Source: a virus. Taken from it: 22,272 nucleotides of DNA. Below, piece after piece: positions 3,282 through 16,761 of this stretch. Numbering within the stretch: position 1 is the stretch's first letter; every line of letters begins with the position of its first letter. Location: positions 1-22,272 of the IMG/VR virus record IMGVR_UViG_3300042914_004444; one strand, written 5' to 3'. The translations under genes were made by a program, and so were the position numbers. The notes under the pieces are model-generated. The model was not told where the DNA came from and searched no databases. It saw only the letters and a list, made by a program, of their open reading frames with translations.

Positions 3282-3686
3282 ATGTGGTTATATCAAAACA
3301 AAGAATTCGAAGAATCAATTGATAAGTATGTGGGTTTTGTTTATCTGATTACCTGTTTAAAAACAAATCGTCGGTATATAGGAAAGAAATTATTTTGGTC
3401 GTCAAGGACCAAACAAGTGAAAGGTAAGAAGAAACGATTTAAGGTTGAGTCTGATTGGAAAACTTATTGGTCCTCATCAGATGAACTAAAACAAGATGTA
3501 AAAAACCTCGGCGAAGAAAATTTTAAGCGTGAAATCGTGCATTTGTGCTTTGGGAAGGGTGAGCTCTCCTACCTTGAATTACGTGAACAAATAGATCGAA
3601 GGGTTCTAGAATATCCGACCGATTGGTACAACAATTTAATTCACTGCAGGATCCACGGATCTCACCTAAAAACCCTCAGAAAATAG
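3282..3686 (+). CDS. GIY-YIG-like nuclease (Seg-like putative endonuclease)
   Basis: A 134-residue protein. GFVYLI at residues 18-23 and RRYIGKK at 31-37 form the GIY-YIG two-strand signature; a basic stretch (KGKKKRFK) and a possible catalytic glutamate in SYLELREQ follow. Proteins with this beginning (MWLYQNKEFEESIDKYVGF) are widespread in marine T4-like phages and are usually annotated as putative homing endonucleases. It lacks the long DNA-recognition tail of I-TevI, so it may instead be a housekeeping or recombination nuclease. Only a weak ribosome binding site (TTGGGAT) precedes it; translation may be coupled to the zinc-ribbon gene. Confidence 0.78.
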   Translation: MWLYQNKEFEESIDKYVGFVYLITCLKTNRRYIGKKLFWSSRTKQVKGKKKRFKVESDWKTYWSSSDELKQDVKNLGEENFKREIVHLCFGKGELSYLELREQIDRRVLEYPTDWYNNLIHCRIHGSHLKTLRK

Positions 3687-3756: not shown

Positions 3757-4071
3757 ATGATGAGAAAACGACGTTCCGACAGAAATCATGTGCTCTACCA
3801 GATCACTAACGTGTCCACTGGCGATACTTACGTAGGTCTGACTGTTGCACAGGGTCAAGCCTATCTGCGTTCCGTCAAGGTTCGTTGGCAGAAACATGTA
3901 TCTGCTGCCCTCAACGACGGCAAAGATTGGGCCTTCAGCAAGGCTCTACGGGCCCAGCAAGACACGTCTTGGCGTTATCAGGTGCTGGAGATTGTGCGAG
4001 GACGTAAGAATGCCCATCAGCGAGAGCGCCAACTAATCGCAGAACTTTCCCCTTCTTTGAACACATTTTAA
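3757..4071 (+). CDS. GIY-YIG-like nuclease domain protein
   Basis: A 104-residue protein. HVLYQITN (11-18) and TYVGLT (24-29) match the GIY-YIG strands. An arginine-rich helix follows (VRWQKHVSAAL), and ERQLIAELSPSLNT at the end matches the catalytic glutamate and final region of the family. It differs clearly from the GIY-YIG protein just upstream, so it is not a recent duplicate. The start could be the ATG at 3757 or the adjacent one at 3760; no ribosome binding site is seen. It lies alone between two strong promoters, each with GTTGT/ACAAC palindromes. Confidence 0.8.
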   Translation: MMRKRRSDRNHVLYQITNVSTGDTYVGLTVAQGQAYLRSVKVRWQKHVSAALNDGKDWAFSKALRAQQDTSWRYQVLEIVRGRKNAHQRERQLIAELSPSLNTF

Positions 4072-4072
4072 T

Positions 4073-4104
4073 GTTGTTTTTTTACAATGTTGTTAAAATA
4101 CAAC
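4073..4104 (+). repeat. Two abutting 16-bp palindromes (putative operators), copy A
   Basis: GTTGT-TTTTTT-ACAAT (4073-4088) is followed directly by GTTGT-TAAAAT-ACAAC (4089-4104). The second unit ends exactly 10 bases before the -35 box of the next promoter. The same two-unit, 10-base-gap layout occurs at 10945-10976. The most natural reading is a pair of sites for a dimeric regulator contacting neighbouring helical turns. The protein that binds them is unknown. Confidence 0.75.
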
Positions 4105-4114
4105 AAAAAACTGG

Positions 4115-4142
4115 TTGCACTTTTATCTGAGTCCTGTATAAT
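4115..4142 (+). promoter_or_regulatory. Sigma70-type promoter of small-gene block 1
   Basis: TTGCAC (4115-4120), 16-base spacer, TATAAT (4137-4142). The spacer ends AGTCCTG, identical to the end of the spacer at 11002-11008, and both -35 boxes are preceded by GGT or CGGT. It should transcribe the run of small genes from 4174 onwards. Confidence 0.85.
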
Positions 4143-4173
4143 TGATTTTGTTGATTGATTGAGAGAGATTGAG

Positions 4174-10872: not shown

Positions 10873-10943
10873 CTGACTTTTATCTTTTTATAAACAGTGC
10901 ATTTGCCTTTTACTGCTGGAAGAAGGCAAACGAATTTCTGTGA
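10869..10943 (+). CDS. Possible 24-residue membrane-associated peptide
   Basis: MTDFYLFINSAFAFYCWKKA followed by NEFL, with an ATG overlapping the cupin stop (ATGA). One hydrophobic aromatic helix is visible. The same bases contain an 8-bp inverted repeat (TTTGCCTT at 10902-10909, AAGGCAAA at 10923-10930) without a T-run. The region may therefore be a truncated gene or simply a spacer. It ends 2 bases before the operator-like repeat at 10945. Confidence 0.4.
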   Translation: MTDFYLFINSAFAFYCWKKANEFL

Positions 10944-10944
10944 T

Positions 10945-10976
10945 GTTGTATTCTCACAACGTTGTAAAAAAACAAC
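10945..10976 (+). repeat. Two abutting 16-bp palindromes (putative operators), copy B
   Basis: GTTGT-ATTCTC-ACAAC (10945-10960) joined directly to GTTGT-AAAAAA-ACAAC (10961-10976), ending exactly 10 bases before the -35 box. The half-sites are kept while the N6 centres differ from copy A at 4073. This is what protein-binding sites look like, rather than a recent copy of the whole region. Confidence 0.78.
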
Positions 10977-10986
10977 AAAAAATCGG

Positions 10987-11014
10987 TTGCACTTTCTGCT
11001 AAGTCCTGTATAAT
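10987..11014 (+). promoter_or_regulatory. Sigma70-type promoter of small-gene block 2
   Basis: TTGCAC (10987-10992), 16-base spacer, TATAAT (11009-11014). Hexamers and spacer length are identical to the promoter at 4115; the spacers share CTTT at the start and AAGTCCTG/GAGTCCTG at the end. It should transcribe the small genes from 11048 onwards. Confidence 0.85.
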
Positions 11015-11047
11015 TATCAATGTTGAATGATTTTTCAGGAGCGCCAA

Positions 11048-16098: not shown

Positions 16099-16106
16099 TA
16101 TAAATA
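16099..16106 (+). promoter_or_regulatory. T4-type late promoter of the tmRNA unit
   Basis: TATAAATA, a perfect match to the T4 late promoter recognised by the phage sigma factor gp55 with gp33, whose gene lies at 17953. It starts on the base after the oxygenase stop codon and would start transcription near 16112, just before the tmRNA acceptor part. Another TATAAATA (7703) is inside rnh and has no such placement. Confidence 0.75.
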
Positions 16107-16112
16107 ACTTTT

Positions 16113-16176
16113 ATGATTGTAAGAAGTTGACTGAAAGGTGTTTCGGACGGCGGTTCGATTCCGCCCAGGTCCACCA
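16113..16176 (+). ncRNA. ssrA: tmRNA acceptor piece (3' part, encoded upstream)
   Basis: The 3' end of a tmRNA. TTTCGGAC is followed by the T arm GGCGG-TTCGATT-CCGCC (16149-16165), the acceptor strand CAGGTCC (16166-16172), discriminator A and an encoded CCA (16174-16176). TTTCGGAC before the T arm also occurs in E. coli tmRNA. No matching GGACCTG or D arm lies upstream, so it is not a tRNA. Instead CAGGTCC pairs with GGGCCTG at 16575-16581, and TGTTTC pairs with GGGGCA downstream (helix P2). The mature 5' end is unknown; I placed it at the likely transcript start. Confidence 0.9.
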
Positions 16177-16188
16177 AAAGGAAATTAG

Positions 16189-16563
16189 ATGTTATCTTTT
16201 AGGAATTTTACAGAATCTAGAGAAGATCCGCATCTTTATCATGCAACATATAGAATTCATATGGACAGTATAGCCAAAAAAGGTTTGTTGGCAAATTCTG
16301 ATCATAAGAACTGGAACGATAGCAAAGGGGGTCGGGTTTATTTAGCAAAAGATCCTGATGAAGCGCTAAGTCATGCAGAATCTGCTGAAGACGCACCTCA
16401 AAAACATTTTGATAGCGGCATTGTTGTGTATAAAGTTAATAGAAAAAATCTAGATCAAAGTAAAATTCATAAAGATTCGAATAACCCGGATGCTGATACA
16501 ATTGAATATCATGGAGACATTCCGTCTAAGCATCTGTCAGTTCATTCAGAACATGATACCTGA
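16189..16563 (+). CDS. ART/KptA-fold-like protein encoded between the two tmRNA halves
   Basis: A 124-residue protein lying wholly inside the permuted tmRNA gene; it starts 12 bases after the CCA and ends 11 bases before the other half. AAGGA precedes the ATG. LYHAT (H18), a DSIAKKGLL helix, GGRVYLAKDPDEAL (Y51), IVVYKVNRKNL and EYHGDIPSKHL (E106) follow the order of ADP-ribosyltransferase-fold proteins and of KptA/Tpt1 RNA 2'-phosphotransferases. H18-Y51-E106 could be an H-Y-E triad. The first residues (MLSFRNFTES) loosely resemble T4 capsid-targeting leaders (MKTYQEFIAE). No membrane segment. Substrate unknown; family call is from pattern only. Confidence 0.75.
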   Translation: MLSFRNFTESREDPHLYHATYRIHMDSIAKKGLLANSDHKNWNDSKGGRVYLAKDPDEALSHAESAEDAPQKHFDSGIVVYKVNRKNLDQSKIHKDSNNPDADTIEYHGDIPSKHLSVHSEHDT

Positions 16564-16574
16564 TTCCTTCTGAT

Positions 16575-16749
16575 GGGCCTGACCTGGTTTCGACGGGGCA
16601 ATAAGTAGGAAGATGGACGATCCGACACAGAGAGTCGTTAAAAGTAAAAAACGTAAACGCAAACGACGAACAGTTCGCATTGGCTGCCTAAACTCAGCCT
16701 AGGGTTTCAGTGGGTTTCCTCGTAACAGAATAACCCACTTTATTTTTTT
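16575..16749 (+). ncRNA. ssrA: tmRNA coding piece (5' part, encoded downstream)
   Basis: Starts GGGCCTG-ACCTGGTTTCGACGGGG, matching the start of E. coli tmRNA (CTGG-TTCGACGGG). GGGCCTG pairs with CAGGTCC of the acceptor piece over 7 bp, with the third pair G-U, the alanyl-tRNA synthetase identity element. CGAC-ACAGAGA-GTCG is a candidate for the first pseudoknot stem. The tag frame begins with resume codon GCA at 16659 and reads ANDEQFALAA, stop TAA at 16689-16691. It is followed by GC-rich pairing segments and a terminator, and no tRNA-like 3' end follows. Only about 175 bases, so the pseudoknot region is reduced. Confidence 0.92.
16709..16749 (+). terminator. Intrinsic terminator of the tmRNA unit
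   Basis: AGTGGGTT (16709-16716), 15-base loop, AACCCACT (16732-16739), then TTATTTTTTT. It lies 18 bases after the tag stop codon and 13 bases before the holin-like gene, so it ends the tmRNA transcript. The stem may also remain as the 3' end of the mature coding piece. Confidence 0.8.
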
Positions 16750-16761
16750 AAGGAAAACGTT

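Follow-up and report, generated by a model that had tools for sequence, protein, structure and literature searches.

The virus record IMGVR_UViG_3300042914_004444 of IMG/VR comprises 22,272 bases with T4-type genes; the whole record was analysed and is referred to here as the window. Within it lies a tmRNA gene in which the 3′ half of the molecule is encoded ahead of the 5′ half, and the two halves are 398 nt apart. What, then, occupies this intervening sequence (IVS)? A preliminary description of the locus interpreted the gene as a permuted tmRNA and took the 398-nt gap for a spacer of the usual kind. The first part of this interpretation stands, but the second does not: the analysis strongly indicates that the spacer is a protein gene.

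The window contains a complete permuted tmRNA gene

The Rfam model tmRNA_permuted (RF04321) aligned over its full length (model positions 1–213) to positions 16115–16691 with 117.8 bits (E = 8.1e-23; gathering score, 47), and ARAGORN independently called a permuted gene (tmRNA*) with the tag ANDEQFALAA, which closes with a ClpXP-type degron followed by a stop. A chance match at 16115–16691 is excluded. Covariance models had been proposed as a check on the preliminary description, and the outcome was divided: RF04321 scored far over its cut-off, but the beta_tmRNA model (RF01850) reached only 76.5 bits, below its cut-off of 84. RF01850 aligned correctly in the coding half and placed the acceptor half within the long IVS, so the resemblance is confined to the coding half and the model was rejected for typing the gene.

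The elements of the tmRNA were found where the preliminary description had read them, including the mature ends at 16176 and 16575. The acceptor stem is formed by CAGGTCC (16166–16172) and GGGCCTG (16575–16581) with seven of seven pairs, G3-U70 among them, and ACCA (16173–16176) follows directly after CAGGTCC. The six-base P2 segments TGTTTC (16139–16144) and GGGGCA (16595–16600) also pair, three G-U pairs included. A second helix, GATTG (16115–16119) with CGATC (16618–16622), comes from the covariance model and was absent from that description; in the model alignment, the two P2 helices lie between the pieces, and a third, short helix is interrupted by non-standard pairs. Inter-piece folding energy was also considered as proof of a two-piece complex and was set aside as not discriminating (−12.8 versus −8.1 ± 3.1). 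The T4-like affiliation is evident from gp32 (5.8e-46) and a helicase loader (5.7e-52) in the window, and these two genes, together with ARAGORN, RF04321, and the coding half of RF01850, support the earlier view that a T4-like phage encodes a functional-looking two-piece tmRNA in permuted order.

The gene is preceded by a T4-type late promoter box and followed by a terminator-like hairpin (Table 1). The window contains two such boxes where 1.2 are expected, so the match by itself is weak. Across 272 distinct upstream regions of tmRNA genes, the box occurred 40–69 nt upstream of the T arm in 13 cases and at another place in one (among the matches listed), which argues that its use is real but confined to a minority of these genes.

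Table 1. Features of the permuted tmRNA locus in the window
Feature	Position	Strand	Basis or remark
T4-type late promoter box, TATAAATA	16099..16106	+	Exact match; 8 nt separate it from the acceptor piece
tmRNA acceptor piece (3′ half of the molecule)	16115..16176	+	5′ pairing strands, T arm, CAGGTCC, encoded CCA; RF04321 positions 1 onwards
Intervening sequence (IVS), 398 nt	16177..16574	+	Between the two model halves; presumed removed at maturation; filled by a putative protein gene
AAGGAA, 5′ strand of the IVS closing stem and Shine-Dalgarno sequence of the nested gene	16178..16183	+	Pairs with 16564–16569
Nested protein gene, 124 aa (MLSFRNFTESREDPHLYHATY...)	16189..16563	+	Identical copy in a second, independent contig
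TTCCTT, 3′ strand of the IVS closing stem	16564..16569	+	Pairs with 16178–16183
UGAU leader before the coding piece	16571..16574	+	Adjoins the presumed RNase P cut; of 89 distinct IVSs, coding or not, 78 have TGAT here
tmRNA coding piece (5′ half of the molecule)	16575..16750	+	GGGCCTG, TTTCGAC, P2 strand, tag frame; RF04321 and RF01850
Tag reading frame, ANDEQFALAA and stop	16659..16691	+	ARAGORN; sequence reading
Terminator-like hairpin, GTGGGTT/AACCCAC, then T run	16710..16749	+	Sequence; end of the tmRNA transcript

A protein gene appears to fill the intervening sequence

The IVS begins with the signals of a gene. A Shine-Dalgarno sequence, AAGGA (16178–16182), almost abuts the CCA and is spaced from the start codon as AAGGA-N6-ATG; the frame that it introduces remains open to the end region of the IVS, an arrangement that defines the class of coding IVSs described below. 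Its stop ends 11 nt before the coding piece, outside the UGAU leader. The stem that closes the IVS comprises 6 bp in the conserved register with an A-C mismatch at position 1 and is shorter than most others, and the window is a milder case of the overlap between gene signals and RNA features seen elsewhere. The sequence makes a strong case that the spacer holds a nested protein gene.

Could the arrangement be an assembly artefact or a chimera at 16177–16574? The carriers are metagenome contigs, and one contig of the same phage group, L006 (IMGVR_UViG_3300033571_017037), stops at the start of the IVS, its match to the window ending at 16180, as would happen in a population where IVS content varies. 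Against this, the 124-codon gene and its arrangement are repeated in an independent contig, IMGVR_UViG_3300042887_004906, which is 99.7% identical to the window over 8,079 nt, and tens of other contigs share the architecture with other genes. An artefact is very improbable.

The only homologue of the nested frame is this identical copy, hence there is no variation from which to calculate dN/dS, and its 124-aa product matched no Pfam family. Its residue pattern is suggestive of an ADP-ribosyltransferase/KptA fold, but this assignment was dropped, as the E-values were 0.043 for KptA and 0.5 for a phage ADP-ribosyltransferase, and sequence searches of Pfam, NCBIfam, and PDB all gave no significant match. 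An AlphaFold model built with no alignment had a pLDDT of 49, and Foldseek returned no match to it below E 0.3. The protein starts with MLSFRNFTES (16189–16230), which appears similar to the capsid-targeting N-termini of T4 internal proteins; a packaged-protein role would fit this start and the late promoter.

Coding intervening sequences recur among permuted phage tmRNA genes

A single frame may arise by chance, and an alternative account is that this is a plain permuted phage tmRNA and that IVS ORFs are frames left open by chance because the spacers are short and AT-rich. Short hairpins with no ORF do make up most of the IVSs of permuted tmRNA genes. IMG/VR was scanned in two ways: for AGGA and ATG downstream of an acceptor half (the start-selected set), and in two content-blind scans anchored on the tmRNA coding half only; the totals are lower bounds, and the rates hold for the sampled patterns. 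In the start-selected set, which is the largest and was selected by its Shine-Dalgarno sequence and ATG, all 67 distinct IVSs among the matches listed had frames in which no stop appeared before the final 15 nt of the IVS, compared with 9.4 ± 2.5 in dinucleotide shuffles, and the stop fell exactly 1 nt before the coding piece in 38 of these 67 (4.8 ± 1.8 in shuffles); many loci are related, so the counts are not independent events. Among the matches listed in the content-blind scan of GGGCC-type acceptors, 74 distinct IVSs measured 60 nt or more; 41 of them had an ORF call, versus 5.6 ± 2.2 in shuffles. For GGGG-type acceptors, ORF calls were not significantly commoner than in shuffles (11 of 69 versus 7.5 ± 2.3, among the matches listed), which suggests that the habit is concentrated in one phage group, although two single cases of this type (L531 and L251) are clear.

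At least 98 distinct IVSs with an ORF call were found in IMG/VR, and the 90 with better support group into about 40 sequence families (among the matches listed). Some IVSs of 382–455 nt are entirely open. Ten cargo proteins were tested in Pfam, and matches were obtained to thioredoxin (PF00085, 4e-21), a staphylococcal-nuclease-type SNase domain (PF00565, 2e-12), and PGDYG (3e-6); the thioredoxin and SNase genes are full length. Over 99% of its length, the SNase cargo shares 57% identity with a nuclease gene of phage Melnitz that is free-standing between baseplate genes, indicating that ordinary phage genes use the IVS slot. A membrane-like segment was predicted in 42 of the 90 supported coding IVSs (among the matches listed). 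The dN/dS values ranged from 0.03 to 0.51 in nine measurable families, some with few sites, and suggest that the IVS codons of these families, all other than the window's, are under purifying selection. Given the excess over shuffles, the low dN/dS values, the full-length cargo genes, and the long open IVSs, the chance account is refuted for the phenomenon as a whole and, as an explanation of it, has very little probability; it still applies to some short single cases, and a few single, short ORF calls are probably due to chance.

The commonest cargo consists of membrane peptides of 22–26 aa with an acidic N-terminus (MNDDLT...VVVVLVVFALVLL), as in L234, L243, L259, L348, and others. A 1,886-nt spacer, in L332, was discarded as a probable false pairing.

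The ends of the intervening sequence pair with each other and double as gene signals

A stem closes the IVS: it begins at the first nucleotide after the CCA, and 4 nt separate its end from the coding piece. In this register, 92% of the pairs are canonical in coding IVSs and 87% in non-coding ones, compared with 36–67% when the strands are slid by 1–3 nt; in the coding IVSs, the 92% is over 57 distinct end pairs, and the slid values are 48–67%. Several pair types occur at each position of the stem. The UGAU leader is likewise found in coding and non-coding IVSs alike. Where the IVS is coding, the ribosome-binding site (often TAAGGAAGTTT) is the 5′ strand of this stem, and in many such IVSs the 3′ strand encodes the last codons and the UGA of the leader is the stop. 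Because the stem and UGAU also occur in non-coding IVSs, they are more general features that became gene signals.

Two further observations were made at the IVS ends and within non-coding IVSs. A zinc-ribbon-like frame (MKYTALCPSCF...) in L168, L252, L257, L260, and L341 (IVS of 101 nt) has no stop inside the IVS and enters the coding piece across the presumed RNase P site; its processed form would be a non-stop messenger. The non-coding IVSs of L160 (IMGVR_UViG_3300033232_000045) and L007 contain T-arm-like GGTTCGANTCC stretches, possibly tRNA remnants.

Intervening sequences are exchanged between near-identical phages

One contig, L005, is 98.7% identical to the window over 5 kb downstream of the locus and 92% over 5 kb upstream. 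L005 and L113 nevertheless have a 119-nt non-coding IVS that is unrelated to the window's but has exactly the same boundaries, and between L005 and the window both strands of the closing stem change along with the IVS. This difference is a natural exchange of the IVS. In relatives collected by an exonuclease search, the IVS measures 5–140 nt, versus 398 nt in the window.

Precise swaps between near-identical genomes would suit IVS genes that are homing-type mobile elements aimed at the tmRNA spacer, and so would the SNase-fold nuclease of one cargo family and the homing endonuclease genes known from group I introns in tmRNA genes (PMC11915505). Such elements seem quite improbable here, as the cargo comprises about 40 families and close to half of its ORFs look membrane-like, Pfam searches with ten cargo proteins gave no GIY-YIG, HNH, or LAGLIDADG nuclease, and both strands of the closing stem vary with the IVS.

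The coding trait looks phage-specific

A permuted tmRNA scored over the cut-off in 38 of 50 virus contigs among the exonuclease-based relatives, and permuted genes are also present in named phages of Pseudomonas, Xanthomonas, Stenotrophomonas, Alcaligenes, and Acinetobacter; no coding IVS was found among the cultured (named) phages examined. The carriers of coding IVSs include gp32-positive T4-like contigs (14 of 50 records searched, two of the 14 being MAGs) as well as contigs of 278–363 kb. The same pattern was searched in 84,980 cellular species genomes, which gave at least 61 matches, and two of those listed were permuted with an IVS ORF. A cellular origin of coding IVSs was rejected: of the two, L391 lies on a MAG contig with a phage gp32, and the L384 peptide is nearly the same as that of viral L244. 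In 250 Burkholderiales genomes, matches over the cut-off span about 205–246 nt, IVS included, versus 577 nt in the window, leaving no space for a gene of this size. By these comparisons, the coding-IVS trait looks phage-specific.

ARAGORN also predicted unusually long tags of 27–31 aa (e.g., ATADTFDFSAMSFTGNSVSGKSKVALAA) on the phage permuted tmRNAs L239, L252, L257, L260, L343, L345, and others.

One transcript may yield either protein or tmRNA

The reading that we favor, with a probability of roughly 0.8, is that the IVS of this permuted phage tmRNA gene is a slot for a protein gene and that a single transcript is both messenger and tmRNA precursor, each molecule giving rise to protein or to tmRNA. 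The either/or choice is what we infer from the layout: the Shine-Dalgarno sequence, last codons, stop, and presumed RNase P site overlap, so translation and maturation should be mutually exclusive on a given molecule. One transcript, probably from a T4-type late promoter in the window, would carry the acceptor piece, a short messenger with its own ribosome-binding site, and the tag-coding piece. The nested gene would be translated, probably co-transcriptionally, before the closing stem forms; translating or terminating ribosomes would melt the stem, cover the acceptor strand, and so block tmRNA maturation on the same molecule. Later folding of the stem and the acceptor would commit the RNA to tmRNA. 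The mature tmRNA would then perform ordinary trans-translation late in infection, and the IVS products, often membrane peptides of 22–30 aa, would have separate jobs.

The two products may instead be packed compactly and nothing more, the gene and the tmRNA being expressed and processed with no effect on each other. Cargo such as the SNase and the thioredoxin looks like the genes that phages ordinarily carry, and a free-standing version of one is found elsewhere; the presence of the stem and UGAU in non-coding IVSs means that their overlap with gene signals could be opportunism. In most families, however, the Shine-Dalgarno sequence and last codons share the stem, and 38 of the 67 start-selected IVSs among the matches listed have their stop at the presumed RNase P cut; as an argument, such overlap makes independence of translation and processing physically unlikely. 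We regard compact packing as possible but somewhat doubtful.

An extension of the favored reading as slot and switch takes arfA as its analogy. In E. coli, arfA is a short messenger that processing turns into a non-stop one, and its product is tagged by tmRNA. Processed nested messengers might similarly be tagged by trans-translation, which would couple small-protein expression to the demand for ribosome rescue. The RNase P cut would leave the stop 1 nt from the messenger's 3′ end (as in those 38 of 67 start-selected IVSs among the matches listed) or no stop at all, and protein would build up only from transcripts translated before processing or in cells whose rescue capacity is exhausted. The likeness to arfA is an analogy only and concerns IVS frames that end at or past the presumed RNase P cut; the feedback link would be weaker in the window, whose stop lies 11 nt within the IVS. 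We consider such feedback unlikely.

Relation to known tmRNA genes

The preliminary description left it undecided whether a phage copy had been described, and published cases answer this. A permuted two-piece tmRNA has been reported in Melnitz, 53 two-piece cases occur among the tmRNAs of 18,146 phage genomes (PMC9004378), and a 2025 database holds 79 bacteriophage tmRNAs (PMC11915505); the permuted phage tmRNA itself is therefore not new. The new part is the protein gene that fills the IVS. In the literature searched, which left most subscription papers and preprints outside, we found no description of protein genes nested in the spacer of a permuted tmRNA.

The window shares with the RF04321 and RF01850 genes the order of the halves, the G3-U70 acceptor stem, T arm, CCA, P2 helices, TTTCGAC, and a tag ending in ALAA, but differs from them in its 398-nt, protein-encoding IVS. 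Melnitz and related marine myophages likewise have a permuted ssrA in a T4-related phage (PMC9004378); for Melnitz, an early promoter and a glutamine riboswitch are reported and no IVS gene is described (PMC9004378), whereas the window has a late-promoter box and a nested gene. Group I introns in tmRNA genes also place a protein gene within a removed part, as these self-splicing introns in the T loop carry LAGLIDADG homing endonuclease genes (PMC11915505); the window, in contrast, has no intron, and its gene occupies the permutation spacer. The IVS of a permuted tmRNA in one MAG contains a tRNA gene and was reported as unique (PMC11915505); there too a gene lies within the IVS, but it is an RNA gene.

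On this reading, the discarded spacer of permuted tmRNA genes would gain a function, and phages would have a new location for genes, inside a structured non-coding RNA gene, with an RNA stem as the ribosome-binding site and a processing leader as the stop. It also brings to light tens of families of small phage proteins, many being membrane peptides of 22–30 aa that gene callers likely miss, and makes testable the question of whether one transcript can choose between messenger and tmRNA.

Elsewhere in the window, a stretch of about 90 bp (4071–4160) matches, at 81–84% identity, the part of L004, L005, and L006 that corresponds to window positions ~10,940–11,030, and is a dispersed repeat, perhaps regulatory. 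The adjacent ORFs at 3282–3686 and 3757–4071 have, by eye, the look of GIY-YIG-type nucleases.
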